Below, piece after piece: positions 25,041-49,557 of a stretch of 64,000 nt of DNA. The DNA comes from Serpentinicella alkaliphila (GTDB lineage Bacteria > Bacillota > Clostridia > Peptostreptococcales > Natronincolaceae). Position 1 is the stretch's first letter, and every line of letters begins with the position of its first letter. The position numbers were made by a program, and so were the translations under genes. The notes under the pieces were generated by a model, which saw only the letters and a program-made list of their open reading frames with translations, ran no database searches and was not told the origin of the DNA. Location: positions 2,816,502 through 2,880,501 of the forward strand of contig NZ_CP058648.1 in the NCBI RefSeq assembly GCF_018141405.1, in the 5' to 3' direction.

Positions 25041-25130
25041 TAGTTTTATATAAAACTAAGTTTTAGTTTTTTTGAAAAATTAGTTTGACATCAAACTAAA
25101 CCGAATATATAATAGTTTTATATAAAACTA
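25041..25130 (+). promoter_or_regulatory. Consensus promoter embedded in a three-operator palindrome array (left locus)
   Basis: Three 18-bp palindromes are visible: TAGTTTTATATAAAACTA at 25041-25058 and 25113-25130 (perfect), and TAGTTTGACATCAAACTA at 25081-25098. The middle one contains TTGACA (25084-25089). Exactly 17 bp later comes TATAAT (25107-25112), followed at once by the third palindrome. So a perfect sigma-A promoter has an operator over its -35 and another over its -10/start. The same arrangement and 32-bp operator spacing recur at 48860-48909. It reads toward the two micropeptide genes. The binding protein is unknown. Confidence 0.75.
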
Positions 25131-25634: not shown

Positions 25635-25683
25635 TGTGATTTGTTTTGATTGTTAAGAAATAATTTTACTTCCCCAATCTAAT

Positions 25684-25727
25684 TTGGTAGTAGATTACTG
25701 GACTTTGTTTTCCAGGACTACTGCCAA
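25684..25727 (+). other. Long hairpin after the micropeptides
   Basis: TTGGTAGTAG pairs with CTACTGCCAA, with an inner CTGGA/TCCAG stem. The outer motif TTGGYAGTAG also forms the terminator stem of the right-hand locus (49135-49174), so it is a shared part of the duplicated unit. Confidence 0.6.
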
Positions 25728-25861: not shown

Positions 25862-25892
25862 AACTAAAAAATCTAGGCATAAAGCCTAGAAA
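25862..25892 (-). terminator. Terminator of rnpB copy 1
   Basis: CTAGGC-TTTAT-GCCTAG hairpin and T run on the minus strand, 18 bp after the RNA 3' end. Confidence 0.8.
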
Positions 25893-25909: not shown

Positions 25910-26260
25910 CGAGTAAGTCTATAAGCCGAGTTCTGTCATAGATGATCATCTATCTAGGCCTACTGTTACCAATAGGCTCAAGCAATCTACCACGGGACAC
26001 GACGGGCCGCCGCTTTTTAGTCCCTACTTGATCTTGCTCCAGATGGGGTTTACATAGCCAACTAGTCACCTAGTTGCTGGTAAGCTCTTACCTCACCTTT
26101 CCACCCTTACCCCTTCTAATTATATGGAAGGGGCGGTATCTCTCTGTTGCACTTTCCTTGGAGTCACCTCCACTGGGTATTACCCAGCACCCTGCCCTTT
26201 GGAGCTCGGACTTTCCTCGTTCACAGCTTATGCTATGCCCGCGATCATCCAACTTACTCG
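25910..26260 (-). ncRNA. rnpB: RNase P RNA, copy 1 (type A)
   Basis: About 351 nt. The ends CGAGTAAG/CTTACTCG pair as P1. Universal segments are readable on the minus strand: GAGGAAAGTCCGAGCTC (CR-I), GTGCAACAGAGAG, GGTAAGGGTGGAAAGG, GTAAACCCCATCTGGAGCAAGA, GCTTGAGCC and CAGAACTCGGCTTA (CR-V). P16/P17 with a GGCCC loop mark it as type A. The P12-like helix is short (CCCCTTC/GAAGGGG). This is the catalytic RNA that trims tRNA 5' ends. A second full copy lies 23.6 kb away in the same orientation. Confidence 0.96.
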
Positions 26261-26292: not shown

Positions 26293-26321
26293 ATTATATC
26301 ATAAAAATTATTTATTGTATA
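26293..26321 (-). promoter_or_regulatory. Candidate promoter of rnpB copy 1
   Basis: On the minus strand TATACA-N17-TATAAT ends about 32 bp before the RNA 5' end. Similarity to the flank of copy 2 extends to about 26310, so the promoter region was duplicated too. Confidence 0.5.
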
Positions 26322-26488: not shown

Positions 26489-27493
26489 TTACATGCTTTT
26501 TATTTCTTCCCATATGGAATCTATTACGGGAATCCCCTTCTCTAAATTTTCTCTTCTAGTAGATATTACTCTTTCTCCAGGATAAGATATTTTAACTCCT
26601 TCATTAGCAGGTTGTGATGCTTTTATATCATCTATAACATTGTTTATCATAATATCTGTAATCTCCGGTGTATTAAATTTACCAGGATCTATAGCTATCA
26701 TAACCTGTGAACAACCAAATTCATCTTCAGTCATTCGACCTATATCAGTTGTAGAATTTCCTCCTGATAATATCGTTGCAACTAAGTCAAGAGCTATGGA
26801 TAAACCCGACCCTTTCCAAAATCCTATTGGTAGTACCCTCGATGTTTTTTCTATTTCTGCTGGGTCAGTTGAAATATTTCCAGTTGAATCATAGCCCCCC
26901 GGAAAAGGTAATTGTATACCCTTTATTTTATATTCATTAATTTTTCCATAAGAAAATTGTGACATGGCTCCATCAAAAACAACATGCTCTCCATTACTTC
27001 TTGGTATAGATATAACAAATGGATTATTTCCAATTTTACTATCCTTTGCACCCCATGCTGGCATATTAGGCATAGTATTAGTCCAGCATATTCCTACACA
27101 TCCAGCATCAGCAGCTTGCCAACCATAAGCACCACCCCTCAACCAATGATTTGTGTTTCTTATAGCAACTACACCTACGCCATATTCCTTTGCTAATTCT
27201 ATTGCCTTATCCATGCAAATTTTAGCATTAATATTTCCAATGCCTAAATTTCCATCCCATCTCTCAAAACACCCATCTCCACCTATTTTTTTAGCTTTTG
27301 CATTAATATCAATGTAGCCTTTTTCGATGTAATCAATGACTCTTGAAAATCTATTAACTCCATGAGAGTAAACTCCATCTAAACTATTTTCAGCAAATAA
27401 TTTAGCAGAAACCTGGGCATCCTCTTCCCTCATGCCTTTTTTAACCAAAACTCTTTTAAATTCCTTAAGCATATCATCAAATTTGATTCTCAT
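26489..27493 (-). CDS. yiaK: Ldh-family oxidoreductase, YiaK-like (2,3-diketo-L-gulonate reductase type)
   Basis: 334 aa. It matches the YiaK subgroup of the malate/L-lactate dehydrogenase-like family, with landmarks GVYSHGVNRFSRVIDYI, NHWLRGGAYGWQAA, WGAKDSKIGNNP and LPIGFWKGSGLSIALD. These NAD(P)H enzymes reduce 2-oxo acids such as 2,3-diketogulonate. In this cluster the substrate is presumably a uronate-derived keto acid. It is the most downstream gene of the minus-strand uxa block and is separated from uxaC by the IS110 element. Confidence 0.82.
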   Translation of the reverse strand: MRIKFDDMLKEFKRVLVKKGMREEDAQVSAKLFAENSLDGVYSHGVNRFSRVIDYIEKGYIDINAKAKKIGGDGCFERWDGNLGIGNINAKICMDKAIELAKEYGVGVVAIRNTNHWLRGGAYGWQAADAGCVGICWTNTMPNMPAWGAKDSKIGNNPFVISIPRSNGEHVVFDGAMSQFSYGKINEYKIKGIQLPFPGGYDSTGNISTDPAEIEKTSRVLPIGFWKGSGLSIALDLVATILSGGNSTTDIGRMTEDEFGCSQVMIAIDPGKFNTPEITDIMINNVIDDIKASQPANEGVKISYPGERVISTRRENLEKGIPVIDSIWEEIKSM

Positions 27494-27559
27494 AATAACT
27501 TACATTCCTTTCGCTTCGCTCAGGCACAAATCGTAATGAAAGTGTCTAGCGAATCAGAT

Positions 27560-27804
27560 TTTTGTCTATACTTAATGTGAAAATATATAGATATACTACA
27601 GAGCACGGAGGGGGGAGTAGAATTGATTCCTCCACTTTAGGATTCAAGTCCGTATAATAACATGTGTCGAGTATCTTCTCAAGCACAAATGAGTGTGCCT
27701 ATGAGCACGTAACCTAATAATTGTATAAGCAATTCCTTGGTATTCTTTGCTGGATACTCAGTCAATTTCTATATATTTTCAATTTTTATTTTGGAGGGTT
27801 GCTA
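27560..27804 (+). ncRNA. Candidate IS110 bridge RNA region
   Basis: IS110-group elements encode a structured bridge RNA in the non-coding left end, and this region is in the right place and of the right length. Hairpins are visible: ACGGA...TCCGT (about 27603-27655) enclosing a GGAG...CTCC stem, and a CAC...GTG structure near 27684-27706. Loop-target pairings cannot be assigned here. Position-based inference. Confidence 0.4.
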
Positions 27805-29067
27805 ATGTCGAAGATTGTCCACCCTATTTGTTGTGGCATTGACGTTCATAAAAAGTTTCTTGTAGCTGCAATAGCTATAACTGATAAGCAAAATGTCACT
27901 ACATATATCAAACGTCGTTTTTCTACTTTCAATTCTGACCTCAAAAATCTTGAAAAATGGCTACATAATCATAACTGCACTGAAGTCTGTATGGAATCCA
28001 CCGGTAAGTATTGGATTCCTATTTTTAATGTGCTAGAGAATTCTTGTCATGTTGTTATTGCTAATCCTAAATATGTTCGTGCTATTAAAGGCAAGAAAAC
28101 CGATGACAAAGATGCCACTTGGATTGCTGACTTATTTAAATTCGGTTTAGTTCCTTCTAGCTTTATTCCTCCCAAAGAAATTCGTAGGCTTAGGGAGCTT
28201 TTTCGCTATCGCTTTAAATTAACTGGACATAGAGCAAGTGAAAAAAACAGACTACAAAATGCTCTTACTGTATCCAACATCGCTCTAGCTTCTGTTGTTA
28301 GTGACTCTTTTGGCAAATCTGCTTCTGCAATTGTGGACTATATTCTATCCTGTGATACCTTTGATCCTGAGCACTGTAAGTCTCTTTTGCAGAAAAAGTT
28401 AAAGGAAAAGGCCGATGAGATTATACAGTCAATTATCGGATATGAGCTTAGTAATGATCAATCAGTTAAAATGAAGGTTTGCACAAAGCATTATGATTAC
28501 ATTAACGAATGTGTTGATGATTTAGATAAAACTATTTCATCTATGGCAGAACCTTACACTGATTTCATTAATTATGCTGTCACTATCCCAGGTATTAGCA
28601 AAAATTCAGCAACTTATATTATTGCAGAAATCGACACTGATATGTCTGTTTTTAAGTCTTCCAAGCATTTATGCTCTTGGGCAGGTTTAACTCCCCAGAA
28701 TAACGAAAGTGCTGGCAAGAAAAAATCAGTACGCATATCAAGAGCTGGAGTTTATCTCAAACCCCTTCTTGTTCAATGTGCAAATGCTGCGATAAAAGAT
28801 AAAAAGAATCCCTATTTTAAAATTAAGTATGACCATATAAAGAAACGTCGTGGTCATAAACGAGCTATCATTGCCATTGCACGTATGATTCTTACTTGCA
28901 TCTACCACATGTTTTTGAATAAAGAAGCTTTTAATCCATCAGATACAAATTACTCTGATATTCCAGAAGGCCTATATAAAAAACTTAAGATGCAGTTTAT
29001 TAAAAATGCTATTAAATTATTAGAAAAAGAAGGCTGTGTAATTACCCCTCCAGCTGCATCGGCCTGA
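27805..29067 (+). CDS. IS110-family transposase (DEDD recombinase)
   Basis: 420 aa from the ATG at 27805 (GGAGGG site); the longer reading back to 27721 is not needed. The N-terminal RuvC-like domain has GIDVHKK (Asp), CMESTGKYW (Glu) and KTDDKDA (Asp, Asp). The C-terminal Tnp_2 domain has TIPGISKNSATYI and the SAGKKK...RISRAG segment with the catalytic serine region. It appears intact, so the element may still be active. Confidence 0.93.
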   Translation: MSKIVHPICCGIDVHKKFLVAAIAITDKQNVTTYIKRRFSTFNSDLKNLEKWLHNHNCTEVCMESTGKYWIPIFNVLENSCHVVIANPKYVRAIKGKKTDDKDATWIADLFKFGLVPSSFIPPKEIRRLRELFRYRFKLTGHRASEKNRLQNALTVSNIALASVVSDSFGKSASAIVDYILSCDTFDPEHCKSLLQKKLKEKADEIIQSIIGYELSNDQSVKMKVCTKHYDYINECVDDLDKTISSMAEPYTDFINYAVTIPGISKNSATYIIAEIDTDMSVFKSSKHLCSWAGLTPQNNESAGKKKSVRISRAGVYLKPLLVQCANAAIKDKKNPYFKIKYDHIKKRRGHKRAIIAIARMILTCIYHMFLNKEAFNPSDTNYSDIPEGLYKKLKMQFIKNAIKLLEKEGCVITPPAASA

Positions 29068-29198
29068 TAACATATAAATAAATACTTATGCCTTTGAGTG
29101 GCAGATTGCTGGTACTCTTTTGGGTTTGCACAATTCGCTAGGCTTTTCTTTCAACCTATACCCCTTTATATTTTTTTACTCAGACAGTTATATGAATT

Positions 29199-30605
29199 TT
29201 ATACCTCAATTCCTAAGTAATCCAATGCATTACCATAACATATATCCTGAACAATTTTCCCTAGTATTTTCAGGTCATATGGATATTCACCTTCTTCTAC
29301 CCAAGTACCAATTAAATTACATAATATTCTTCTAAAGTATTCATGCCTTGGATACGAGATAAAACTCCTAGAATCTGTAACCATACCTACAAATCTACTT
29401 AATAATCCATTGTTTGCTAGGGAAATCATCTGCTTTGTCATACCATCCTTTTGGTCTAGAAACCACCAACCTGAGCCAAATTGCATCTTTCCTGGAATTC
29501 CACCACCTTGGAAAGAGGCCATCAAAGTAACCAATACGTCATTATCCTTAGGGCTTAGATTGTATAGAATGGTTTTAGGCAAATCGTATTTGTAATCTAT
29601 TTCATTTAATAGTTTTGCTAATGGTTCCGCTATATTATCATCTGCAATGGAATCATATCCCGTATCCGGACCAAGCTTATTAAACATGTTGCTATTCACA
29701 TTTCTCATAGCACCTATATGTAACTGCATAGTCCATCCCCTTGTGCTATACATTTTGGCTAATTCAATCAGTGTTCTAGTTTTGTATTTATTTATTTCAG
29801 CTATTGTTAATTCTTCTCCCTTTAATGCCTTCTTAAAAATACTGTTAATCTCTTCATCCCTTGCTTGTTCAAAGGTTACTTTGTCTATACCATGGTCTGA
29901 AATTCTGCATCCTTCTTCATGAAAAAATTGAACTCTACTTTCTAAAGCCTTTAGAAAATCTTCATAAGATTCAATTTTAATGTTACTTATATTGGATAAA
30001 GACTGTACCCATGGCACAAAAGTATCATTTTGAATATTTATACCTTTATCTGGTCTTAAAGTGGGTAGTACATTAACATCAAATTCCCTATCTTCCCGAA
30101 TTCTTCTATGATGCTCTAGTGTATCAATAGGATCATCTGTAGTACATAGGGCCTTTACATTTGAATTTATAATTAAATTTTTCGCAGAAAAATCATCAGA
30201 TTTTATCAATTCATTCGCCTTATTCCATATCTCTTCAGCAGTAGCTTCACTTATTATAGTATCTATATTGAAAAACCTTCTTAATTCTAGATGAGACCAG
30301 TGATATAGAGGGTTTCCGATGCAGTATGGAACTGTTTTAGCCCATAGCTTAAATTTTTCATATTCATCACCACTGCCTGTTATTAACTCTTCTTCCACAC
30401 CATTTGCACGTAATGCTCTCCATTTATAGTGGTCTCCCCCTAACCATAATTCAGTTATATTTCTGAATTTTTTATTGTCAGCTATTTCCTTGGGGCTTAA
30501 ATGACAGTGAAAATCAAATATAGGCATTTTCTTAGCATAATTATGATACAGCTCAATAGCTACATCATTACTAAGTAAAAAATTTTCATCCATAAACTTT
30601 TTCAT
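29199..30605 (-). CDS. uxaC: Uronate isomerase (glucuronate/galacturonate isomerase)
   Basis: 468 aa from the ATG at 30605 (AAAGGAATG upstream). Metal-binding HxH in IFDFHCHLSP (His33, His35) and the late FVGMVTDSRSF motif are typical of UxaC. It converts D-glucuronate to fructuronate and D-galacturonate to tagaturonate, the entry step of the pathway. It is downstream of uxaA by 95 bp on the same strand. Confidence 0.94.
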   Translation of the reverse strand: MKKFMDENFLLSNDVAIELYHNYAKKMPIFDFHCHLSPKEIADNKKFRNITELWLGGDHYKWRALRANGVEEELITGSGDEYEKFKLWAKTVPYCIGNPLYHWSHLELRRFFNIDTIISEATAEEIWNKANELIKSDDFSAKNLIINSNVKALCTTDDPIDTLEHHRRIREDREFDVNVLPTLRPDKGINIQNDTFVPWVQSLSNISNIKIESYEDFLKALESRVQFFHEEGCRISDHGIDKVTFEQARDEEINSIFKKALKGEELTIAEINKYKTRTLIELAKMYSTRGWTMQLHIGAMRNVNSNMFNKLGPDTGYDSIADDNIAEPLAKLLNEIDYKYDLPKTILYNLSPKDNDVLVTLMASFQGGGIPGKMQFGSGWWFLDQKDGMTKQMISLANNGLLSRFVGMVTDSRSFISYPRHEYFRRILCNLIGTWVEEGEYPYDLKILGKIVQDICYGNALDYLGIEV

Positions 30606-30699
30606 CTTAGACTCATTCCTTTCGTTGTGCTCAAACACACATAATTTTTCAGAAATTAATCTTTAATTCATCCCCTAACTAGTTACACAAAATATTTTT

Positions 30700-32190
30700 T
30701 TAAAGTGTAACTCCTGTTTTATAAATTGCGATTTCCTTAATTCCGTTTTTCTCGTTATTTACATATTCTCCACTCGCAACTTTTATTAGATACTCTATGA
30801 AATTGTTTAACAATGTCTCCATCGGTATATCCTCTAATAATACCCCAGCATTAAAGTCTATCCAGTGGGGCTTTAACTTAAAGATTTCAGAATTAGATGA
30901 AACTTTTACAGTGGGAACAAAGCTTCCAAAAGGTGTTCCTCTTCCTGTAGTAAATAATACTATATGACATCCAGATGCCCCGAGTGCTGTAGATGCAACC
31001 AAATCATTACCAGGGGCATTTAATAGATTTAGTCCCTTCTTTTTAACTATTTCTCCATATCTTAGTACATCCACAACCTTGGACTCTCCACCCTTTTGAG
31101 TGCAACCGAGGGATTTATCCTCTAAGGTTGAAATCCCCCCCTCTTTGTTTCCTGGGGATGGGTTTTCATAGATTGGCTGACCATGTTGAATGAAATATTG
31201 CTTAAAATCATTTATTAAATTAACTATATTATCAAAAACCGATTCAGATTCTGCTCTATCCATTAATATAGTCTCTGCACCAAACATTTCAGGTACTTCA
31301 GTTAATATCGTTGTACCGCCATGATTAATTAGGTAGTCGGAAAAAGCTCCTAAAAGTGGATTAGCAGTTATACCAGAAAATCCATCGGATCCCCCACATT
31401 TTAATCCAACTTTCAGTTCAGATATGGGCATATTTTCCCTAGAATCTTCATTTATAACTTCTAAAATTTCTTTGAGGATATTGACACCTTTTTCAATTTC
31501 ATTACCAACAGCCTGTGTTTTCAAAAACTTAATTCTTTCCTTGTCATATTCACCCAATTCAACGATAAAATCCTCAATAGTATTGTTCTCACAGCCCAAT
31601 CCCAAGACCAATACTCCACCAGCATTAGGATGTTTAACTAAATCCAAAAGTATTGTTCTAGTATTTTCAAAGTCATCTCCTAACTGTGAACACCCATAGT
31701 TATGCTTATATACATGAATTCCATCAATTTGTCCTAGATCGTTCTCTGCTTTCAATCTATTTGCTATTATCTCTGCAGTACCATTAACACATCCAACAGT
31801 TGGCACTATCCAGAGCTCATTTCTAATACCTACATCACCATTTTTTCGTTTATAACCGTTAAATTCAGGGGTTTTACCGATCCTCTTAACCTCCATATTA
31901 ATTGGATTATACTTATAATCTAATGTACCATCTAAATTCGTTTTGATATTGTGAGTGTGTATCCATCGTCCTTTTTCTATGTTCTTTACCGCATGCCCAA
32001 TTGGATATCCATATTTGATAATATTTTCTCCTTGATAAATGTCTACTGTAGCTATTTTATGACCGGGTTTTATATTTTCTAATAATTCAATTTCTTTTCC
32101 ACTGTCAATTAAAACTGTACCTTGCTTTAACTCTTTTAAGGCTATTAAGGTATTATCTTTCTCATTAATTCTTATATAATCCTTCATCAT
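30700..32190 (-). CDS. uxaA: Altronate dehydratase (UxaA family)
   Basis: 496 aa: N-terminal SAF domain (about 1-90) and large C-terminal GD_AH domain with conserved cysteines (CSQLGDD, GLGCENN, KCGGSDGFSG, LGCTQKGG) for an iron centre. It dehydrates D-altronate to 2-keto-3-deoxygluconate. The start overlaps the uxaB stop by 4 bp (ATGA), so translation is coupled. Confidence 0.93.
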   Translation of the reverse strand: MMKDYIRINEKDNTLIALKELKQGTVLIDSGKEIELLENIKPGHKIATVDIYQGENIIKYGYPIGHAVKNIEKGRWIHTHNIKTNLDGTLDYKYNPINMEVKRIGKTPEFNGYKRKNGDVGIRNELWIVPTVGCVNGTAEIIANRLKAENDLGQIDGIHVYKHNYGCSQLGDDFENTRTILLDLVKHPNAGGVLVLGLGCENNTIEDFIVELGEYDKERIKFLKTQAVGNEIEKGVNILKEILEVINEDSRENMPISELKVGLKCGGSDGFSGITANPLLGAFSDYLINHGGTTILTEVPEMFGAETILMDRAESESVFDNIVNLINDFKQYFIQHGQPIYENPSPGNKEGGISTLEDKSLGCTQKGGESKVVDVLRYGEIVKKKGLNLLNAPGNDLVASTALGASGCHIVLFTTGRGTPFGSFVPTVKVSSNSEIFKLKPHWIDFNAGVLLEDIPMETLLNNFIEYLIKVASGEYVNNEKNGIKEIAIYKTGVTL

Positions 32191-33635
32191 AAAATCTCCC
32201 TTATAGCTTCTTCAATTCCTTTTTTCTCTATATTTATTAAGTATCTGCTTACCAAGACTTTTAAGCCATCTATCTTATTTAAGTCCATTTTCCATAATTC
32301 CTCTAAGCCTAAAACAATTTCTACCATATATTTATAGTATTCATCTGTACCATCACAGTTCTCCCAAAGCTTTGAGAACATTTGAAGATAATCAGGAGAG
32401 TCAGATAGATTTATTTTTTCTCCGTTTCTCTCACCTTTATAGAAACGTATCAAAGCTGCTAAGGAGAATAGTAGCTTTCGTGGTAATTCCCCTTTTCGCT
32501 TATTGTATTCTAGAATAGATGGTAATACCCTAGTCTCAAACTTACTCATAGAATTTAATGATATACTTATCAAAAAGTGCTTAATATAAGGGTTTCTAAA
32601 TCTATCTATTACTGCTGCTGCAAATTCATTAAGTTCATCCTGTGGCAAATCTAAGGTAGGAACTATTTCATCATACAATGCAGACCTAATATATCCTCCA
32701 ATTACTTCGTCATTTATAGAATCTTTTACAGTATCAATATTATATAAATATGAAACTGGTACCATAATAGTATGTAATCCGTTCAAAATCCTTACCTTTC
32801 TCGTCCTATATAAAGTCAAATCATCTACAAACAATACATTTAAACCAATTTTATGAGCGGGGAATTCCTTCGCTAGTTCTTTAGGCCCCTCTATTACCCA
32901 TAGATGAAAATACTCACCCTCCACTAAAAATTTATCACGATATCCAAGCTCTTTCTCAATTTCATCAGCAGTTTCCGTTGGGTAACCTGGAACTATTCTA
33001 TCAACCAAAGTATTATAAAATACATTTGCATTGTTAATCCAGTCAATAAATCCTGACTCTAATTTCCACTGCTGTGATAGCTTAATTATAATATCCTTAA
33101 GTTTTTCTCCGTTTTTATCTATTAACTCACATGGCAGAATAATTAAACCCTTTGATAAATCTCCATTAAATGACTTATACCTATGATATAAAAAAGCTGT
33201 TAATTTACCGGGAAATGAATTTTGGGGTCTATCCTCTAATTTATCTTTATTATCATAAACAATTCCAGCCTCAGTTGTGTTAGATATAATAAATCTCATT
33301 TCGGGAGATTCAGCAGCTTTTAAATACTCATCATAATCCCTATATGTATTGATTGCTCTCGTTATAGAATTTATTATAGTACTCTCATTGATTAATTTAC
33401 GGTTTTCAATACCTTTTATTAAGAGTGTATACAACCCACTCTGGTCATTAAGTTCATATACTTTATCATTATTCAAAGGTCCCACTACTAATACTCCAGT
33501 ATTAAAATCTAGCTCCTTATTCATTTTATCAACTATCCAATCAACAAAAGCCCTTAGGAAGTTACCTTCACCAAATTGTAATATCCTTTCAGGATACTCT
33601 AAATAATCTTTATAAATGGATTTATTTAGTTGCAC
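32187..33635 (-). CDS. uxaB: Tagaturonate reductase (altronate oxidoreductase)
   Basis: About 482 aa. I prefer the GTG at 33635 over the GTG at 33647, because the latter lies inside the AGGAGGTG ribosome site. N-terminal nucleotide fold with RILQFGEGNFLRAFVDW, then the mannitol-dehydrogenase-like C-terminal domain with ILNGLHT. It reduces tagaturonate to altronate with NADH. First gene of the uxaB-uxaA-uxaC minus-strand series, directly downstream of the IclR regulator gene. Confidence 0.92.
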   Translation of the reverse strand: MQLNKSIYKDYLEYPERILQFGEGNFLRAFVDWIVDKMNKELDFNTGVLVVGPLNNDKVYELNDQSGLYTLLIKGIENRKLINESTIINSITRAINTYRDYDEYLKAAESPEMRFIISNTTEAGIVYDNKDKLEDRPQNSFPGKLTAFLYHRYKSFNGDLSKGLIILPCELIDKNGEKLKDIIIKLSQQWKLESGFIDWINNANVFYNTLVDRIVPGYPTETADEIEKELGYRDKFLVEGEYFHLWVIEGPKELAKEFPAHKIGLNVLFVDDLTLYRTRKVRILNGLHTIMVPVSYLYNIDTVKDSINDEVIGGYIRSALYDEIVPTLDLPQDELNEFAAAVIDRFRNPYIKHFLISISLNSMSKFETRVLPSILEYNKRKGELPRKLLFSLAALIRFYKGERNGEKINLSDSPDYLQMFSKLWENCDGTDEYYKYMVEIVLGLEELWKMDLNKIDGLKVLVSRYLINIEKKGIEEAIREIL

Positions 33636-33704
33636 TTCACCGAACACCTCCTCTTTTATAAATGAATTGTTTATATCTTCTGTTGCTAATCATACCTTAA
33701 GGAA

Positions 33705-34466
33705 TTATGGTCTATATCCCAATTCCGTCGAGATAAGGTGGGCATACTTTTTTATCTCTAGGGCAAAAACTTCGACCCTGTCCTTCGTGACTCTTATAGA
33801 TGGGCCTGAAATACTAATTGCTCCTTCAACATCACCATTACTATTAAAGATTGCAGCACCAATACACCTAACGCCTATCTCGTTCTCTTCATCATCCTCA
33901 GCAAATCCCTTTTCTCGAATTCTTTGAAGTTCTTCCTTTAGCTTTTCTAACTCTGTGATAGTATTACTAGTCAGTTTTTCAATTTTCGTATTTTCCCAAA
34001 TGGTTTCTACCTCCTCGTCAGTCATATATGCAAGCATTGCTTTTCCGACTGAAGTACAATATAGAGAACTCCTTCTGCCTATAGTAGAAGCCATACGGAT
34101 AGTATTGTCCGCCTCTACCTTATCAATATAAACTATGTCATTTGTATCCCGTATTACTAAATGAACAACTTCATTTACGGACTCCATTAAAGCCTTAGTA
34201 AACGGCTTAGATACTGCTAATATATCTGCTTCAGCTATCCTTCTAGCCCCTAGCTCAAATAATTTAAATGATATTCTATATTTATTGCTATCTGAGTCTT
34301 GTACTACAAACCCTTTATATATTAGTGTTCCTAACAATCTATGAACCGTGCTTTTGTGTAGATTTACTCTACTACCTATCTCTGCAACCCCAAGTCCATC
34401 TACGTGCTTAGAAAGTAATTCCAAAATTGTAAGTGCCCTATCTACCGACTGAACAACATCTTTCAC
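33705..34466 (-). CDS. kdgR: IclR-family transcriptional regulator (KdgR-like)
   Basis: 253 aa with a GTG start 8 bp after AGGAGG. N-terminal winged helix (LGVAEIGSRVNLHKSTVHRLL) and C-terminal IclR effector domain with GVRCIGAAIF. It is divergent from eda-kdgK and co-directional with uxaBAC, so it most likely controls both units in response to 2-keto-3-deoxygluconate. A 17-bp palindrome in the divergent region is a candidate operator. Confidence 0.87.
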   Translation of the reverse strand: MKDVVQSVDRALTILELLSKHVDGLGVAEIGSRVNLHKSTVHRLLGTLIYKGFVVQDSDSNKYRISFKLFELGARRIAEADILAVSKPFTKALMESVNEVVHLVIRDTNDIVYIDKVEADNTIRMASTIGRRSSLYCTSVGKAMLAYMTDEEVETIWENTKIEKLTSNTITELEKLKEELQRIREKGFAEDDEENEIGVRCIGAAIFNSNGDVEGAISISGPSIRVTKDRVEVFALEIKKYAHLISTELGYRP

Positions 34467-34612
34467 TTAAACTTCCTCCTAATCTATTCTTAAAAAATAG
34501 TAATAATTATTATATAAATTATAACTAATAAAAAATGTATTTAGAATAATATTGCATTTATTTTCCATATTAATTATAATATAAATTAAGAAGTTTCGCA
34601 ATGTAAATATAG

Positions 34613-34629
34613 GTTTCATAATACGAAAC
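34613..34629. promoter_or_regulatory. Candidate KdgR operator
   Basis: GTTTCATAATACGAAAC is a near-perfect palindrome (one mismatch per arm) between kdgR and eda, 26 bp before the eda start. Placement fits autoregulation and eda-kdgK control. Confidence 0.5.
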
Positions 34630-34654
34630 AGCTATGTGAGGGAGGCTTTATAAA

Positions 34655-35281
34655 TTGAAAAGATATGAAGTAGTACAAAGAATCGAGAAGGTAGGCGTTG
34701 TTGCGGTAGTAAGAGCTGAAAATACCGAAAAAGCTAAAAACATTGCCTTAGCTTGTATGAAAGGTGGCATTGACTCTATCGAAATTACATTTACCGTTCC
34801 AAGAGCACAAAATGTAATTGAGGATTTAAGTACTGAGTTTGGTAAAGAGCTATTAGTTGGAGCTGGCACAGTACTAGATAGTGAAACAGCTAGAATAGCC
34901 ATCTTAGCTGGTGCAAACTATATCGTCAGTCCAGCATTTGATCTTGAAACTGCAAAATTATGCAATAGATATCAAATTCCCTATATGCCCGGATGTATGA
35001 CAATAAAAGAAATGATAATTGCTATGGAGGCAGGAGCAGATGTTTTAAAGATATTCCCAGGTAGTGTATTTGGACCAGATTATATAAAGGCAGTTAAAGG
35101 TCCTCTACCCCAAGCTCTTATGATGCCAACAGGTGGAGTTAGCATTGATAATGTAGATAAGTGGATAAAAAATGGTTGTATAGCAGTTGGTATTGGCGGG
35201 AACTTAACCCAAGGCTCGAGTGAGGAAATAACTAGAGCTGCCAAGGAATTCGTCGAGAAGATTAAATTAGCTAGACAATAA
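34655..35281 (+). CDS. eda: 2-keto-3-deoxy-6-phosphogluconate aldolase
   Basis: 208 aa, TTG start 9 bp after GGGAGG. Class I aldolase: Glu43 in SIEITF, Schiff-base Lys132 in ADVLKIFPG, and PTGGVS near residue 160. It splits KDPG to pyruvate and glyceraldehyde 3-phosphate, the last step of both uronate arms. Followed 19 bp later by kdgK. Confidence 0.94.
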   Translation: MKRYEVVQRIEKVGVVAVVRAENTEKAKNIALACMKGGIDSIEITFTVPRAQNVIEDLSTEFGKELLVGAGTVLDSETARIAILAGANYIVSPAFDLETAKLCNRYQIPYMPGCMTIKEMIIAMEAGADVLKIFPGSVFGPDYIKAVKGPLPQALMMPTGGVSIDNVDKWIKNGCIAVGIGGNLTQGSSEEITRAAKEFVEKIKLARQ

Positions 35282-35300
35282 TTATTTGGGAGGAATAAAA

Positions 35301-36323
35301 ATGAAAAAGATTGTAACTTTGGGAGAAATAATGCTTAGGCTTTCAACTCCTGGATTCGAAAGATTTGTCCAGGCTGAATCATTTGATGTCGTATATGGTG
35401 GTGGAGAAGCGAATGTTGCCGTTTCATTAGCTAATTACGGATATAATACATATTTTGTATCAAAATTACCGAATAATGAAATAGGTCAGGCAGCTATTAA
35501 TCATTTAAGAAGATTTGGTGTCAACACTAAATATATTGCAAGAGGTGGAGAAAGAGTTGGGATTTACTACTTAGAGTCCGGTGCCTCCATGAGACCATCA
35601 AAGGTTATATATGATAGAGATCACTCCTCTATTTCAGAAGCAGATGTAAATGATTTTGACTTTGATGAAATATTTAAAGATGCAGACTGGTTCCACTTCA
35701 CAGGAATTACACCTGCCTTAAGTGAAAAGGCTATAGTTTTAACTGAGGAGGCTCTAAAATCCGCTAAAAGACATAATGTCACGGTTTCAGTTGACTTAAA
35801 CTACAGAAAGAAACTTTGGACTCCTGAAAGAGCTAATGAAGTAATGTCAAACTTAATGCAATATGTTGATGTTTGCATCGGTAACGAAGAAGATGCAGAA
35901 AAAGTATTAGGATTTAAACCTGGTAAAACCGATGTTACATCTGGTGACTTAGAGCTTGCAGGATACAAGAATATATTTGAACAAATGAAAGAAAAATTTG
36001 GCTTCAAATACGTAATTAGCTCCTTAAGAGAATCTCATTCTGCATCTGACAATGGATGGTCAGCATGTGCTTATGATGGAAGTGAATTCTATCATTCAAG
36101 AAAATATGAAATAAGAATTGTAGATAGAGTCGGTGGTGGGGATTCCTTCGCAGCCGGAGTAATTCATGGATTGCTCGATGGTAGAAACTTTAAGGATGCA
36201 TTAGAGTTTGGTGTGGCAGCCTCTGCCCTCAAACATACTATTCTTGGAGACTTTAATATGGTAACAGTAGAAGAAGTGGAAACATTACTTAAAGGTGATG
36301 CTTCAGGTAGAGTGCAAAGATAG
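35301..36323 (+). CDS. kdgK: 2-keto-3-deoxygluconate kinase (PfkB family)
   Basis: 340 aa from the ATG at 35301 (GGGAGG). Ribokinase fold with GGGEANVAVSLA near the N-terminus and the catalytic VGGGDSFAAGVI near residue 280. It phosphorylates KDG to KDPG, the substrate of eda. Ends at a terminator, so eda-kdgK is a two-gene operon. Confidence 0.93.
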   Translation: MKKIVTLGEIMLRLSTPGFERFVQAESFDVVYGGGEANVAVSLANYGYNTYFVSKLPNNEIGQAAINHLRRFGVNTKYIARGGERVGIYYLESGASMRPSKVIYDRDHSSISEADVNDFDFDEIFKDADWFHFTGITPALSEKAIVLTEEALKSAKRHNVTVSVDLNYRKKLWTPERANEVMSNLMQYVDVCIGNEEDAEKVLGFKPGKTDVTSGDLELAGYKNIFEQMKEKFGFKYVISSLRESHSASDNGWSACAYDGSEFYHSRKYEIRIVDRVGGGDSFAAGVIHGLLDGRNFKDALEFGVAASALKHTILGDFNMVTVEEVETLLKGDASGRVQR

Positions 36324-36829: not shown

Positions 36830-36846
36830 TTTGTTTTTTAAGTGAT

Positions 36847-38043
36847 TTATTTCGCTTCACTTTCGACATGTATATATGAACTCGAAACGTTTAAAACTAC
36901 ACATACTATCATTAAAATAATAGCTGCTACAATAGCACCCATACCAGCAAAAATACCAAAAGAATCAGATAGTGCACCTGTTATAATTGGCATAATAATA
37001 GCCCCAATACCTCCAACCATTAGCAAGACACCCATAGCCATAGGATAATCTTTAGTAACATTCCCAACAGTTGAAACTGTTGTAGGATAAATACCTGCCA
37101 TAGAGAAACCTAATCCCATGATTGCAATAGTAATTACACTTATGCTATTTGTAGAAAGTAATAGTATATAAAAAATAGCAGTACCACAACTAGTTGTTAA
37201 CAAAAGAATTTTCTTCGATATTCTTACTCCTAAAAAGGCACAGGTTAATCTACCACAAAGAATAACTAACCATAAGAGTGAAGCAAGCATTTGGGCATAT
37301 TCAATGGTCATAATTCTTGAATCAATAAAATATTTAACCATCCATCCATTGATTGTAGCTTCAGCACATAAATAGAAAAACAAAATACCCGCACTAATAC
37401 AAAAATCCCTATTCTTCAAAAAATCGTAAGACACATTTACCTTCTCCGTCTTTTTTGTGTTATCAATTTTCATCTTAGAAAAAAGAACCATTGAAATAAT
37501 AGCTAGAATAATAATCAGACCCGCAGTTATTTTCCAGCCTAACTCTCCATAAAGATTAGTAGATAGAATAACTAAAAATGGAGAAACCAAAGCGCCTACA
37601 GCGAAAACACTATGTAAAACATTAAGAGCTACGTGACTACTGTTAGAAACCTCATTAACCAACGTATTATTAAAATTCGAAATACTTCCACGACTTAATC
37701 CAGTAAATAAAAAACCTAATAACAATAGCATTGGATTACCTGTTAAAATCATAATTGAAAATCCTAAAACAACAAAACTACATAAAAATATAACTGATTT
37801 TTTTCTTCCTAAATATAAAGGTAATACCCCTGCAATAAATGCAGAAATTAAATTACCTGTTTGGTGAGCTGAAATCAGTCCTCCGCTTATCGTATTATTT
37901 AAATTATATTCAGTGCTGATTAGAGGTAACAAAGAACCTAGAATCATAGAATATAAACCATTTACTGCAAAAACGAAAAAACAACACTTCAAAATATATC
38001 TCTCATCTTTGTTAAGTTCTTTATAAAACCATTGTTCTTTCAT
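36847..38043 (-). CDS. MFS transporter, probable sugar/uronate permease
   Basis: 398 aa from the ATG at 38043 (AGGAGA site). Twelve predicted helices with MFS loop motifs (LGRKKSVIF between helices 2 and 3; SRGSISNFNN). It resembles the fucose-permease type. Its position 50 bp after kdgF suggests transport of uronates or unsaturated uronate products, which is inference. Confidence 0.82.
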   Translation of the reverse strand: MKEQWFYKELNKDERYILKCCFFVFAVNGLYSMILGSLLPLISTEYNLNNTISGGLISAHQTGNLISAFIAGVLPLYLGRKKSVIFLCSFVVLGFSIMILTGNPMLLLLGFLFTGLSRGSISNFNNTLVNEVSNSSHVALNVLHSVFAVGALVSPFLVILSTNLYGELGWKITAGLIIILAIISMVLFSKMKIDNTKKTEKVNVSYDFLKNRDFCISAGILFFYLCAEATINGWMVKYFIDSRIMTIEYAQMLASLLWLVILCGRLTCAFLGVRISKKILLLTTSCGTAIFYILLLSTNSISVITIAIMGLGFSMAGIYPTTVSTVGNVTKDYPMAMGVLLMVGGIGAIIMPIITGALSDSFGIFAGMGAIVAAIILMIVCVVLNVSSSYIHVESEAK

Positions 38044-38090
38044 ATCTTTTAATTCTCCTATCTTGAACATGGGTGTCTAACTATGCAACC

Positions 38091-38432
38091 TTAATCATTT
38101 TTTATTATAAAATCCTCCCTATATGGTGTAAATATATCTAGAAGAATACCATTTTTAGTGCATAGACATCCATGTACTTGATTAGACATTTTATATAGAG
38201 TATCACCCTTCTTTACGGTTTGTTTAATTCCGTTAATTTCAAATTCAAACTCCCCTTCCAAAACATAGGTAAGTTGTGTATGAGGATGACTATGTATAGT
38301 TCCAATAGCATCTTTATTAAAGTGTACTTCAACAGCCATTAACTCTTCCCCGTATGCTAGTATTTTTCTTCTTATACCTTCTGAAACTATTTCAAAATCA
38401 CATTCTTCGGAAAAAACAAAAGGCTTATTCAT
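38091..38432 (-). CDS. kdgF: Cupin protein KdgF (unsaturated uronate ring opening)
   Basis: 113 aa from the ATG at 38432 (GGGAGGAG). Single cupin barrel with the metal set H-x-H (HSHPHTQLTYVLEGEFEFE) and later HGCLC. The flanking words GIRRKILAY and LLDIFTPYREDF match KdgF closely. KdgF converts 4,5-unsaturated galacturonate/uronates to their linear ketone, feeding KduI and KduD. It lies upstream of the MFS gene in the same direction. Confidence 0.82.
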   Translation of the reverse strand: MNKPFVFSEECDFEIVSEGIRRKILAYGEELMAVEVHFNKDAIGTIHSHPHTQLTYVLEGEFEFEINGIKQTVKKGDTLYKMSNQVHGCLCTKNGILLDIFTPYREDFIIKND

Positions 38433-38505
38433 AGTTGTTACTCCTCCCAAAATAGTATGATACTTAACAAGGTTTTTTAAGCTAAGTACTAAAAACTATA
38501 ACAAA

Positions 38506-38560
38506 GGGGAAAATACGGATCCGATAACTGGATCTTTTTGATAACCGTCAGATTTTCCCC
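38506..38560 (-). terminator. Large terminator hairpin after uxuB
   Basis: GGGGAAAATACGG pairs with CCGTCAGATTTTCCCC and an inner GATCC/GGATC hairpin gives a branched structure. A weak T run follows on the minus strand. Confidence 0.65.
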
Positions 38561-38568
38561 TATTAGCT

Positions 38569-40182
38569 TTAATATACATATTTTTTCAGTGTGTCTCTAA
38601 CCGCACCCTTTTTAGACACCAATTCCTCAAAATATATTTCAACTTTTTCTCCTATGCCTGCATCATAAAGATTTACACTGAATATGGTTGTGTTTGATAA
38701 TATAGGTTTAAGCTTGTCATGGAACGGTCCTTTATCCCCAAAAGAAATATCTCTAACATAAGGGGCTACCTCTTCGAGAAGTGGGTCTGGACTTAACTCC
38801 AATTTCTCACCATTATCATCAAGTCCAATCAAGTATCTGCACCATCCAGCTATAACCAGTGGAATAAGCTTTAGATCGGTAACATTTAGATCTTCTCTTG
38901 TCATATAAGCTTTTATTGTTTCTCCGAAACGAATTCCAAGTTTCTGAGAAGTATCTGAGGCAATTCTCTGTGGTGTGTCAGGCATAAATGGATTTGGAAA
39001 CCTTACTTGAAGTACTTCATCAATAAATTCCTTTGGATCTATAATTATTGGATTTACAACTACTGGTAATCCTTCCTCATAACCAATTTTCTCTACTAAC
39101 GTCCTCAGTTCAGGATCTTTCATTTCTTTTGATATTAACGTATATCCTAAAAGACAACCATATATAGCCAAGGCTGTATGAAGAGGATTAAGGCAAGTAC
39201 AAACCTTCATTTTCTCCACTTTGTCAACGGTTTCTCTATCTGTAAAAATAACCCCACCCTCTTCAAGATTTGGTCTTCCATTAGGGAATAGGTCTTCTAT
39301 TACTAAATACTCCGATTCTTCTGCATTCACAAAGGGCGCCACATATGTATTTTTTGATGTAACAATATCATCTATATCTTCGAATCCATCCTTCTGAAGC
39401 ATCTCTCGTACACTCGGATCAGGTCTTGGAGTAATCTTATCAATCATACTCCATGGGAAAGCAACAAATTTTGGATCACTGACATAAGCTTCAAAGCCAT
39501 TATCAATAAATCCGTTTTCTATCCATTGTTTTGCAAAGCTACTTACTGCATTTAACAGCTTTGTGCCATTATGTGACATATTATCCATGCTTACTAGAGC
39601 AAGCGGTATTTTTCCATTCATATATCTTTCGTATAAAAGAGAAACTAGTTTGCCAATATAGCTAACTGGATTTTGGGGTCCATTATTAAAGTCATCTATT
39701 ACTGCTGGTAAGAATCCCCCCCTACCATCCTTTAAGCTATATCCCTTTTCTGTTATAGTAAAACTCACCATTTGCAGACTAGGACTTGTAAAAATTTCCT
39801 TTAACCTACACCAACTTTCCTTACTGTACGTATCTACAATCAATGACTCAACAATACTAGCAATAACTGTCTTCTCTATGCTTCCGTTCGCCCTAAGGGT
39901 AACAAGTACACTTAGATTATCGTGTGGTTTATTCATATTCTCTATAATTTCATAGTCAAATCCCTCTGCTACAACAATTCCCCTATCACTCTTACCCTCA
40001 TTTAAAATGTTTTGTTGTACATTTGCTATAAATGCTCTAAATATATTGCCTGCACCAAAATGAACCCAATTTGGATAAGCTTTTGTATTACCTTTAACTT
40101 TTTCAATACTAAATTTAGGTAGATTATACAATGCATCTCGCCAAGCTTTCTCATCACTTAATCCTTTTAAGTTTAACTTCAT
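38569..40182 (-). CDS. uxuB: Fructuronate reductase (mannonate oxidoreductase)
   Basis: 537 aa. Mannitol dehydrogenase family: Rossmann start WVHFGAGNIFRAFI, central KVCTCLNPLHTALA and long C-terminal helical domain. It reduces fructuronate to mannonate with NADH. It is next to uxuA, which supports this over mannitol dehydrogenase. Its start has a GGTGG site. It is clearly distinct from uxaB, 5 kb away. Confidence 0.88.
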   Translation of the reverse strand: MKLNLKGLSDEKAWRDALYNLPKFSIEKVKGNTKAYPNWVHFGAGNIFRAFIANVQQNILNEGKSDRGIVVAEGFDYEIIENMNKPHDNLSVLVTLRANGSIEKTVIASIVESLIVDTYSKESWCRLKEIFTSPSLQMVSFTITEKGYSLKDGRGGFLPAVIDDFNNGPQNPVSYIGKLVSLLYERYMNGKIPLALVSMDNMSHNGTKLLNAVSSFAKQWIENGFIDNGFEAYVSDPKFVAFPWSMIDKITPRPDPSVREMLQKDGFEDIDDIVTSKNTYVAPFVNAEESEYLVIEDLFPNGRPNLEEGGVIFTDRETVDKVEKMKVCTCLNPLHTALAIYGCLLGYTLISKEMKDPELRTLVEKIGYEEGLPVVVNPIIIDPKEFIDEVLQVRFPNPFMPDTPQRIASDTSQKLGIRFGETIKAYMTREDLNVTDLKLIPLVIAGWCRYLIGLDDNGEKLELSPDPLLEEVAPYVRDISFGDKGPFHDKLKPILSNTTIFSVNLYDAGIGEKVEIYFEELVSKKGAVRDTLKKYVY

Positions 40183-40326
40183 TTTAATCCACCACTTTCT
40201 TTAGGTTTATACGCATAATAACTAAATTAATTATAAATATTAATATAGCCCTAACTTAAGCGAAAAGAATAATACATGATGTCTTTCTCAGAACTTTACT
40301 AAAAATACAAATACCAATCCTCTATA

Positions 40327-41397
40327 CTATTTTTCATGTGATTTCTTTATTGCTTCCCATAACCCATTTAGGTATGTTGCACCTAAAGCTCTATCATATA
40401 ATCCATAGCCGGGCATCGCCTTTTCTCCCCAAATCATCCTACCATGATCAGGTCTTATAGGTCCTGTCATACCTATTTCATAAAATGCTTTCATAATTTC
40501 AAACATATCCAGCGAACCATCAGTTGATAAATGAGCCGCCTCATCAAATTGTCCGGGACCTAAATGAATTAGATTTCTTACATGACCGAAATGAATTCTT
40601 CCTTTAAAGCTCCTTATCATATCTGGTATATCATTGTTTGGGTTTGAGCCTAAAGAACCTGTACATAATGTTATGCCATTATTCATTATTGGAACTGCAT
40701 CTAATATTCTTTGTATATTTTCCTTGTTATTAACAATTCTTGGTAAGCCAAATACAGACCATGCTGGATCATCCATATGAATTGCCATCTTGATTCCATA
40801 CTTTTCACAGGTTGGCATAATGGATTTCAAGAAGTATATAAGATTTTGGAATAACTTCTCTTCATCTACCCCTTTATATATTTCAAATAATTCTTTTACT
40901 CTAGCGAGTCTATCTGGTTCCCAACCAGGTAAAATAAATCCACCAGAATTCGCATCCATTTCTTTAAACATTATATCAGGATTAATTTGGTCTATAAGTT
41001 CCTGATCATAGGAAAGAACCGTAGAACCATCCGTTCTTTTCTTAGCAAGGTCAGATCTGGTCCAGTCAAAAACAGGCATGAAATTATAACAAACTAGATC
41101 TATTCCTTCTTTTGCAAGATTTTCGAGGGTCTCAATATAATTTGCAATATATTGCTCCCTTGTAGGAAGACCAATTTTTATATCATCGTGTATGTTTACA
41201 CTCTCAATACCACTCAACTCAAGCCCTGCTGCTTCTATTTCCTCCTTCATAGCTTTAATCGCTTCTCTACTCCATACCTCTCCGGGTTTAGTACCATAAA
41301 GAGTTGCAATAACACCTACGCAGCCAGGTATCTGTCTTATTTGCTCTAAGGTCACTGTATCATATTTACTTCCAAACCACCTTAATGTCATTTTCAT
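40327..41397 (-). CDS. uxuA: Mannonate dehydratase
   Basis: 356 aa from the ATG at 41397 (AGAGGGG 9 bp upstream). TIM barrel with UxuA landmarks: TLRWFG at the start, CVGVIATLYG, AIHMDDPAWSVFGLPRI, TLCTGSLG, FGHVRN and RPDHGRMIWGE, which carry the His/Cys/Asp metal ligands. It dehydrates mannonate to 2-keto-3-deoxygluconate. Upstream of uxuB on the same strand (144-bp gap). Confidence 0.94.
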   Translation of the reverse strand: MKMTLRWFGSKYDTVTLEQIRQIPGCVGVIATLYGTKPGEVWSREAIKAMKEEIEAAGLELSGIESVNIHDDIKIGLPTREQYIANYIETLENLAKEGIDLVCYNFMPVFDWTRSDLAKKRTDGSTVLSYDQELIDQINPDIMFKEMDANSGGFILPGWEPDRLARVKELFEIYKGVDEEKLFQNLIYFLKSIMPTCEKYGIKMAIHMDDPAWSVFGLPRIVNNKENIQRILDAVPIMNNGITLCTGSLGSNPNNDIPDMIRSFKGRIHFGHVRNLIHLGPGQFDEAAHLSTDGSLDMFEIMKAFYEIGMTGPIRPDHGRMIWGEKAMPGYGLYDRALGATYLNGLWEAIKKSHEK

Positions 41398-41494
41398 TTT
41401 CGTATACCCCTCTCTATATTCAGAATAATATGCTAGCAATGGTAGCTCAACAATTGCTCTATATTATCAAACACATCTTTTTATAATAACTTAA

Positions 41495-41965
41495 TCATTT
41501 CTGTATTTTAGAAATTACATAGCTATAAAAGTCTTCTTTTTGTTTTCCTAACACTCTATTATTTAGTATAAAACCATGCTTATTGGTTGAAAATATCAGA
41601 ATCATACCCGGTTTTTTTGATATTCCTATTACGGTATTCCATGCTAAATCTGAACTTTGTTTTTCAGTTTTTATATGAATTCCATCATCATCAAATCCTA
41701 TTTCCATAACATCTGAAATCCTTGCTATCTGTCTTTTAGCTCTAAAATAAACAACTAAAGGTTGAATAACCGTAAATAAACAAATTCCGATTATTAGCAA
41801 TATTCTCAAGAGGTTATTTACATGTCCCCAAAATTTTACTGTCAACGATACCATCATCGCAGTAAATATAATGTTACATACCCCAACTATTGAGCTATAC
41901 ATACTATACATAGATAGTTGCCATATATCAAAAGCAGTCGTTTTATAATTAAATTTATATTTCAT
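41495..41965 (-). CDS. YcxB-like membrane protein
   Basis: 156 aa from the ATG at 41965 (AGGTGA). Two helices at about 22-45 and 55-80, then a PH-like YcxB domain (IGFDDDGIHIKTEKQSSDLAW...). It follows dctM directly. The family has no known function; linkage to the transporter may be incidental. Confidence 0.72.
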   Translation of the reverse strand: MKYKFNYKTTAFDIWQLSMYSMYSSIVGVCNIIFTAMMVSLTVKFWGHVNNLLRILLIIGICLFTVIQPLVVYFRAKRQIARISDVMEIGFDDDGIHIKTEKQSSDLAWNTVIGISKKPGMILIFSTNKHGFILNNRVLGKQKEDFYSYVISKIQK

Positions 41966-41973
41966 ATCACATA

Positions 41974-43266
41974 TCACCTAAATAAAGATGGCAGCCACAA
42001 ACTAATACTAGGAATAAAAGTAATCAATAGGAGAGTAATAATCATACAGACATAAAACGGTAATGTAGCTTTTACAACCCGTTCCATTGGTACATTCCCG
42101 ACTGCAGAACCGATAAATAATACTGCACCAACAGGTGGAGTCAAAAGACCTATACCACAGTTTAAAACAATCATAATCCCGAACTGAATAGGATTTATGC
42201 CTATCGAAGTAGCAATCGGCAGTAAGATTGGGGTAGCAATAAGGATGATAGGCGCCATATCCATAATACAACCAAGAACTAAAAGAATAATGTTTATAAG
42301 CAGCGCTAAAATAATTGGATTATCCGTTAACCCTATAATTGCATTTGATGCTAGTCTAGGGACACTTAATCGTGTTAGAAGAAATCCAAAAATACTAGAA
42401 GTTGAGATTAGAATGAGTACGATAGAAAGAGTATTTACACAGGACTCAAGCGACTTCCAAACACCCTTCCAATCTAGACCTTTATAAATATATACACTAA
42501 CAAACAAACTGTAAATAACCGCAATAGCTGCGGACTCTGTGGCTGTAAAAACACCACCAACTACACCTACTACAACGATGAGAACCGCCGCAAGAGCCCA
42601 GAAAGAAAGAAAAAGCTCCTTTAACAAAATCATCATACTGAATTTCTCTCCCCTAGGATAATTTCTCTTTACAGAAATTATATAGGACCCTACCATTAAC
42701 GACACAGCCAAAATTGCTGCTGGTATGTAACCTGCAAGAAAAAGTCCGCCAACTGAAACTCCACCTGCAACAGTTGCATATATTATCATATTATGACTAG
42801 GCGGGACTAAAAGTCCTTCGACAGATGAAGTGATAGTAACTGCCGTAGAAAAATCGTCATCGTAACCTTGTTCTACCATCATAGGTATTAAAATACTACC
42901 AAGAGATGCTGTATCTGCAGAAGCAGAACCAGAGATGCCCCCGAAGAAATATGAAGCAACGATGTTAACCATCGCCATACCCCCACGCATCCATCCAACA
43001 CAGGCTCTGGCGAGAGCAATCAGCTTTTCAGAAATTCCTCCTGATCCCATAAGAACCCCCATTGTAATAAAAAAAGGTACTGCCATAAGGCTAAATTGAC
43101 TAATGCCCTTTACCATTTGCTGTGCAATGGTAGTAAGAGGAAGTCCCTGATACAAAAGAGTGAATACAGCTGATAAAGCTACTGCATAAACAATAGGAAA
43201 TCGTAAGAATATCATGATGAAAAAACTACCCAGTAAAATTAGTATTGCAATAGTCTCAGCACTCAT
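41974..43266 (-). CDS. dctM: TRAP transporter large permease
   Basis: 430 aa from the ATG at 43266 (GGAGGAGG), overlapping dctQ by 11 bp. About 12 helices, with the TRAP-M words GSASADTASLGSILIPMM and NCGIGLLTPPVGAVLFIGSAVG. It forms the sodium-driven permease together with DctQ. In this cluster it likely imports hexuronates. Confidence 0.93.
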   Translation of the reverse strand: MSAETIAILILLGSFFIMIFLRFPIVYAVALSAVFTLLYQGLPLTTIAQQMVKGISQFSLMAVPFFITMGVLMGSGGISEKLIALARACVGWMRGGMAMVNIVASYFFGGISGSASADTASLGSILIPMMVEQGYDDDFSTAVTITSSVEGLLVPPSHNMIIYATVAGGVSVGGLFLAGYIPAAILAVSLMVGSYIISVKRNYPRGEKFSMMILLKELFLSFWALAAVLIVVVGVVGGVFTATESAAIAVIYSLFVSVYIYKGLDWKGVWKSLESCVNTLSIVLILISTSSIFGFLLTRLSVPRLASNAIIGLTDNPIILALLINIILLVLGCIMDMAPIILIATPILLPIATSIGINPIQFGIMIVLNCGIGLLTPPVGAVLFIGSAVGNVPMERVVKATLPFYVCMIITLLLITFIPSISLWLPSLFR

Positions 43267-43789
43267 TGTATACCTCCTCCTTAACAAAAATCGATTTAAT
43301 ATGATTATATATGGACTCAACTAAAAAAATCACCATAGCTACACCTGCCAGAGGTACTGGTAAATACATCCAAAATCTAGAAATGCTTGGCATACTTACA
43401 TAAGTCCCTCTTGAACCAAGTAATACTGCATATCTCCAACCTACTACTATCATAACTACTGCAAGACCTAGTACAGCAACATCTGAAAGGATATCCAAAG
43501 CCAATATCAATTTTTTTGGCAAATATTTATCAAATGCAGTCATACGAATATGTGCCTTTCTTCTAATGGCTAAAGCCGCTGAAAGAACTGCCATATATGC
43601 CATACAAGTTAAAACCACTTCTTCACTCCATGCAGGATCTGGAATAAAAGAAATGTATCGTCCAGCTACTGCCATAGTAGTAATAAGAATATCAACTATT
43701 AATAGCAACTTGCATAATAATAGGACTATCTTGTAAGCCATATCGTAAGCCGGTTTTATTTTGTCTATTGTATTAAAAATGTTTGACAT
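43256..43789 (-). CDS. dctQ: TRAP transporter small permease
   Basis: 177 aa, four helices, with the DctQ words PDPAWSEEVVLTCMAYMAVLSAA and RRKAHIRM. Good ribosome site (GGGGGAG). It bridges the binding protein and DctM. It overlaps dctM. Confidence 0.9.
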   Translation of the reverse strand: MSNIFNTIDKIKPAYDMAYKIVLLLCKLLLIVDILITTMAVAGRYISFIPDPAWSEEVVLTCMAYMAVLSAALAIRRKAHIRMTAFDKYLPKKLILALDILSDVAVLGLAVVMIVVGWRYAVLLGSRGTYVSMPSISRFWMYLPVPLAGVAMVIFLVESIYNHIKSIFVKEEVYNEC

Positions 43790-43840
43790 ACATTAGCTCC
43801 CCCTATATAAAATTTCTCATTAAATGTTCAGTCATTATTT

Positions 43841-43882
43841 TTAAAAAAGACACAAAGATCATAATTAACCTCTGTGTCTTTT
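43841..43882 (-). terminator. Hairpin between dctP and dctQM
   Basis: AAAAGACACA/TGTGTCTTTT stem followed on the minus strand by T6. A partial terminator here would make more binding protein than permease. Confidence 0.75.
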
Positions 43883-43938
43883 AAAGTTATCATAACAATA
43901 CTATTATTAATATGTTGCGAGCCGGTCTTAGACAAACA

Positions 43939-44970: not shown

Positions 44971-45217
44971 ACTGTCCCCTCCAATATCTTTACTTAATAT
45001 TTGCATTGTAGAAAGTTCCATATAAGCCGTTTCATTAAAACTGCAAACCGCGTCTAAGAAATTTCTACATTAATGCCGTTAATTTTTCCTTACATAAGAT
45101 ATCGTTTTCTTTAAAAACTAGAATGCCCGCTATTCCATTCTTCATAGTTCATAACATTATTAAGGTAGTATGTAGTTTAGTGGTATATGGAAGATTAGGT
45201 AAAAACAAATCATATTA

Positions 45218-45937: not shown

Positions 45938-45989
45938 ACGATCACTTCCTCGGTAGAGTATCTATCCATTATTTGCTATATACTACCAT

Positions 45990-46018
45990 ACTACCGTACC
46001 ATCTATCAGTTGTCAACC
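45990..46018 (-). promoter_or_regulatory. Promoter of the first GntR gene, with repeats
   Basis: On the minus strand TTGACA-N17-TAGTAT. Repeats GGTA(C/G)GGTAGTATGGTAG overlap the -10 and are a plausible autoregulatory operator. Confidence 0.55.
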
Positions 46019-46159
46019 AAAATATGGAACATAATAAATGCATATATATTTTTTTCTGCCTGTAATATTCGAATGAAAGCAGTTAATAGGCTATCCAAGA
46101 GTAATAGTTATCAGCTATCAGACAACTTTATTGTTAAGGGAAACTAAAAGTCTTGTACT

Positions 46160-46864: not shown

Positions 46865-46918
46865 ATCTAAAACTCCTTACATAATAGAATGATTTATAGT
46901 ATATTTTGGTTTATCTTA

Positions 46919-49540: not shown

Positions 49541-49557
49541 TTTGTATAATCATATAA

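Follow-up and report, generated by a model that had tools for sequence, protein, structure and literature searches.

The catalytic RNA of RNase P is encoded by rnpB, an essential gene that is usually regarded as occurring once per genome. Targeted phrase searches among open-access papers recovered no published report of a duplicated bacterial rnpB. At least two full-length copies occur in 1 of the 20 genomes of the family considered here and in 7 of 321 genomes of the order, the latter tally being approximate, with several draft assemblies among them. The remaining multi-copy genomes belong to two genera of another family (g128 and g129; genomes G303-G306, G308, and G312), which likewise carry two or three full-length genes, found at dispersed loci in G303, G304, G308, and G312 (L183-L191). 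The rnpB genes of G303-G306 form two paralogue groups common to four species. A further parallel is provided by integrative elements at tRNA and tmRNA gene ends, in which direct repeats of an RNA gene also bracket acquired DNA. At the Serpentinicella alkaliphila locus described here, whole rnpB genes rather than gene ends are repeated and, unlike the dispersed and older paralogues of g128 and g129, the two copies are recent sisters arranged as direct repeats 23.6 kb apart at the ancestral rnpB locus. As RNase P RNAs, both are unremarkable members of class A; the oddity is that a sister duplicate has been retained and that a cluster of acquired metabolic genes lies between the pair.

The window, i.e., the whole 64,000-nt stretch of DNA that was analysed, contains two class A RNase P RNA genes (Rfam RF00010) in their entirety. 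Both are encoded on the minus strand, copy 1 at 26260-25906, with a short P12, and copy 2 at 49926-49554, with a longer, GAAA-capped P12. Covariance-model scoring, which the first-pass annotation had put forward as a check on both copies, returned 307.3 and 304.3 bits, respectively, well over the threshold of 100 and with the full model covered in each case (positions 1-367). Neither copy scores far below the other (the gap is no more than 3 bits), and the full-length single-copy genes of the family span a range (271-322 bits) that includes both. They share with other RF00010 class A genes the full-length match, all core helices, and the rpoD-trmK-nif3-rnh synteny upstream, and differ from them in that two intact genes and a third remnant stand in place of one gene. 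The genome-wide count of rnpB is two, as a search of the whole 3.26-Mb genome (a single contig) found no copies outside the window, and RnpA is encoded by one gene. An assembly artefact can be set aside with near certainty: we found nothing to support it, and the copies reside on one contig with different sequences and flanks at each.

Leaving aside P12 and a single-base indel of the P3 loop (AU/C), the two RNAs differ in their cores by eight transitions. Six of these map to stems and keep the pair (positions 26, 179, 266, 277, 288, and 289), and the other two change the free N of a GNRA tetraloop (positions 95 and 293; GUGA/GCGA and GUAA/GCAA). The differences named in the first-pass annotation are all present and compatible with the fold. 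Specifically, the P3 stem reads CATAGC/GCTGTG in copy 1 and CACAGC/GCTGTG in copy 2 (G-U to G-C at 26/37), GGTGAG pairs with CTTACC in copy 1 and with CTCACC in copy 2 (G-U to G-C at 167/179), the tetraloops all remain GNRA, and the short P12 hairpin of copy 1 (about -14.0 kcal/mol) is replaced in copy 2 by the longer GAAA-capped stem (about -14.6 kcal/mol). The list in that annotation lacked the P3-loop indel and the changes at positions 266 (C/U; G-C to G-U), 277 (U/C; G-U to G-C), 288 (A/G; U-A to U-G), and 289 (U/C; G-U to G-C). In copy 1, 95 of the 100 model pairs are canonical, and the core differences of copy 2 all keep pairing. Comparison with relatives identified U at 179 as derived in copy 1, and U at 266 and probably G at 288 as derived in copy 2; both copies have thus changed while keeping the fold. 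In simulations of eight random core transitions, no pair was broken in 12% of draws, and none was broken with at least six changes in stems in 0.8%; with random substitutions of any kind, the fraction leaving every pair unbroken was 1.0%. Given these frequencies, the pair-keeping pattern alone is only moderately strong evidence for selection. The contrast between conserved genes and diverged flanks is stronger.

Each gene is preceded by a promoter-like site that aligns with the position of the TTGACA-17-TATGAT element of relatives: TATACA-17-TATAAT for copy 1 (26293..26321, minus strand), where the -35 hexamer is weakened, and TTGACA-17-TAAGAT for copy 2 (49962..49990, minus strand), both with TG before the -10. 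Terminator-like hairpins followed by TTTTTT are located behind copy 1 (TCTAGGC-TTTAT-GCCTAGA; 25872..25890, minus strand) and copy 2 (GGTTGTGAATATATAGATATATTTACAATC; 49508..49545, minus strand), the latter read from the sequence and missed by a simple terminator scan; the two hairpins are unrelated. Gene identity is about 95%, whereas the flanks are barely alignable. The upstream flanks of the two copies resemble each other no better than shuffles (125 of 500 reach the score), and homology downstream was not detectable beyond two short elements (104 of 200 shuffles reach the score). The region upstream of copy 2 resembles the rnpB promoters of all four relatives compared (0 of 500 shuffles reach the score against any of them), and that of copy 1 does so less clearly (1-2 of 500 shuffles, two of the four relatives). 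Selection on both copies as RNAs, as the first reading of the sequence had proposed, is likely in view of the model scores, the pair-preserving changes proper to each copy, the promoter- and terminator-like signals, and genes that are about 95% identical within diverged flanks.

The main alternative to maintenance of both copies is gene conversion. In that case, one of the genes would be silent or dispensable, and the pair would be alike only through conversion or youth. The long identical runs that they share, among them the final 59 nucleotides of the RNA, and the weaker -35 of copy 1 fit such a scenario, but promoter- and terminator-like signals are kept in both copies, each has pair-preserving changes of its own, divergence is far greater in the flanks than in the genes, and a third copy, described below, shows what decay looks like. 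We therefore regard a silent duplicate as unlikely. Less probable still is specialisation of the copies for different conditions or substrates via their P12 arms and promoters. These are indeed the regions of greatest difference, and in two other genera of the order two or three diverged copies persist, in one case as two long-lived sister groups shared by four species. However, P12 length is freely variable among single-copy relatives (RNAs of 346-444 nt in the family), and no core change alters the fold.

In a tree built from 47 rnpB sequences, in which the genus is represented by S. alkaliphila alone, the two copies are sisters (support 100/99) inside the family of Alkaliphilus-type relatives. 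Pairing of copy 2 with each of three near relatives was disfavoured (p-AU 0.037, 0.036, and 0.004), the lowest value being that for the rnpB of G012, a genome of the same family, for which the pairing is rejected. The idea that the copies came from different lineages, for which phylogenetic placement had been suggested as the check, is thus not supported, being at odds with both the tree and the AU tests. A viral carrier was also looked for, but viral contigs contained no exact match to a 20-base pattern from this rnpB 5′ end.

The two short elements shared downstream occur in the same order and on the same strand at both rnpB loci. The first is a hairpin, TTTGGTAGTAGAT...CTACTGCCAA next to copy 1 (25683..25727, plus strand) and TTTGGCAGTAGAT...CTATTGCCAA next to copy 2 (49136..49172, plus strand). 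The second is an exact composite site of operator-promoter-like paired palindromes, convergent with copy 1 (25082..25130, plus strand) and with copy 2 (48861..48909, plus strand). With search patterns written after seeing the window sequences, the hairpin was found at exactly two places in the genome, one next to each rnpB, and the composite site at three, of which two are at the rnpB loci. Such exact recurrence at just these places is hard to attribute to chance, and indicates that the duplicated segment extends about 0.8 kb past rnpB. The paired palindromes overlap a TTGACA-17-TATAAT-like promoter, and similar sites at other places in the genome (L201) lie about 200 bases before EtfB-like and pyruvate formate-lyase-like genes, which suggests a candidate operator for one regulator. 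Two small open reading frames convergent with copy 1 (25320-25436, 38 aa; 25563-25634, 23 aa) would encode hydrophobic peptides; neither has clear relatives in the loci compared. Near copy 2, a third, decayed rnpB fragment (48739-48675, minus strand) is equivalent to positions 70-135 of copy 2, stopping where P12 starts, with 79% identity across 67 bases (E 3e-9; score reached by 0 of 1000 shuffles). The Rfam model does not recognise this fragment, which is thus a remnant and not a gene.

The ancestral neighbours of rnpB are split between the two copies. Copy 2 has rpoD-trmK-nif3-rnh upstream (50037..53775, minus strand), as found beside the single rnpB of relatives, and nrfA, ResB, and other genes that follow rnpB in relatives lie beyond copy 1. 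The two copies are separated by a cluster of hexuronate catabolic genes, 22 kb in size. It comprises a block for hexuronate catabolism and transport (36835..48647, minus strand; kduD, kduI, two GntR genes, a TRAP transporter, uxuA, an oxidoreductase, a cupin, and an MFS gene) and a remainder (26489..36323) with genes for 3-dehydro-L-gulonate 2-dehydrogenase, an IS110-family transposase (27721-29067), uxaC, a uxaA-like gene, uxaB, an IclR-type regulator, KDPG aldolase, and a sugar kinase. Relatives carry uronate genes at other loci. About 12 kb, most of the 36835-48647 block, is 80-85% identical at the DNA level to a cluster in G012, and this similarity stops 28 bp from the third rnpB fragment. 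The block proteins are 71-92% identical to those of G012, as against 51-53% for DnaG, Nif3, and TrmK and 86% for RpoD outside the cluster. These values point to transfer of the block and, hence, to import of part of the cluster.

Import might also account for the second rnpB, if circular or linear DNA carrying the cluster together with the rnpB of a close relative had recombined into the resident gene, so that one copy would be the donor's. Direct rnpB repeats flanking the cluster, a part of the cluster recently shared with G012, and ancestral neighbours on the outer sides of both copies are all as this scenario would have it. Nevertheless, we consider it improbable: the copies are sisters, the pairing of copy 2 with the G012 rnpB is rejected, and in the G012 stretch that was read the cluster counterpart sits at another locus, with no rnpB sequence beside it. 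On these grounds we reject an import from the G012 lineage that brought its rnpB along, and the donor would possibly be a congener outside the sampled genomes. An integrase-type island at an RNA gene does not match the locus either, as the repeats are whole genes instead of short attachment sites, and no integrase was identified among the scanned cluster genes, which are metabolic, regulatory, and transport genes plus the IS110 transposase.

We consider it probable, instead, that duplication took place within the S. alkaliphila lineage and that the cluster between the copies stabilises both. A segment of at least 1.2 kb, made up of rnpB, its promoter, and about 0.8 kb of convergent downstream DNA, would have been duplicated, and at least one further rnpB copy would have been made and then decayed to the fragment. 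The partly imported hexuronate cluster now sits between the two intact copies. RecA-type recombination between the direct rnpB repeats would delete the intervening cluster; because of this loss, selection for the cluster would keep both copies. Both genes are probably maintained, as they are conserved relative to their drifted flanks and the third copy has decayed. We infer that they are expressed as working class A RNase P RNAs sharing the single RnpA protein; the same tRNA-processing activity from both would provide added dosage or a backup, and the copies would have drifted only within the limits of the fold. Against duplication with stabilisation by the cluster, gene conversion, if ongoing, could keep a silent copy intact, the -35 hexamer of copy 1 is weakened, and beyond the two short elements no similarity could be detected downstream of the genes. 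Gene structure, the sister relationship, the shared flanking elements, synteny, and the import signal are observations, whereas expression, function, the sequence of events, and stabilisation by the cluster are inferences.

A genome with two intact sister genes and the decayed remnant of another offers a natural test of three questions: whether the dosage of RNase P RNA matters, where in the RNA drift is tolerated (here P12 and pair-neutral sites), and in what way a duplicate can be preserved when useful genes are inserted. It is conceivable, though doubtful, that rnpB is a recurrent landing or amplification site for acquired DNA in the order, where cargo between repeats fixes a second working RNA that is then free to diverge. 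Two other genomes of the comparison carry partial rnpB repeats. In G107 (L182), an exact 53-nt repeat of the rnpB 3′ end occurs at 2528-2580 and 18120-18172 on the same strand, the repeat being 15.6 kb downstream of the intact gene, and the open reading frames in between are tyrosine recombinase-, serine resolvase-, and reverse transcriptase-like; this looks like an integrative element with the rnpB 3′ end as its putative attachment site. In G142 (L166, about 1501-1700), the intact rnpB has, 1.5 kb upstream, a duplicate of its promoter and 5′ third, and a protein gene begins directly after this partial copy. Elsewhere in the S. alkaliphila window, a purine riboswitch (19397-19498; 86.8 bits) lies upstream of a minus-strand phosphoribosyltransferase gene.
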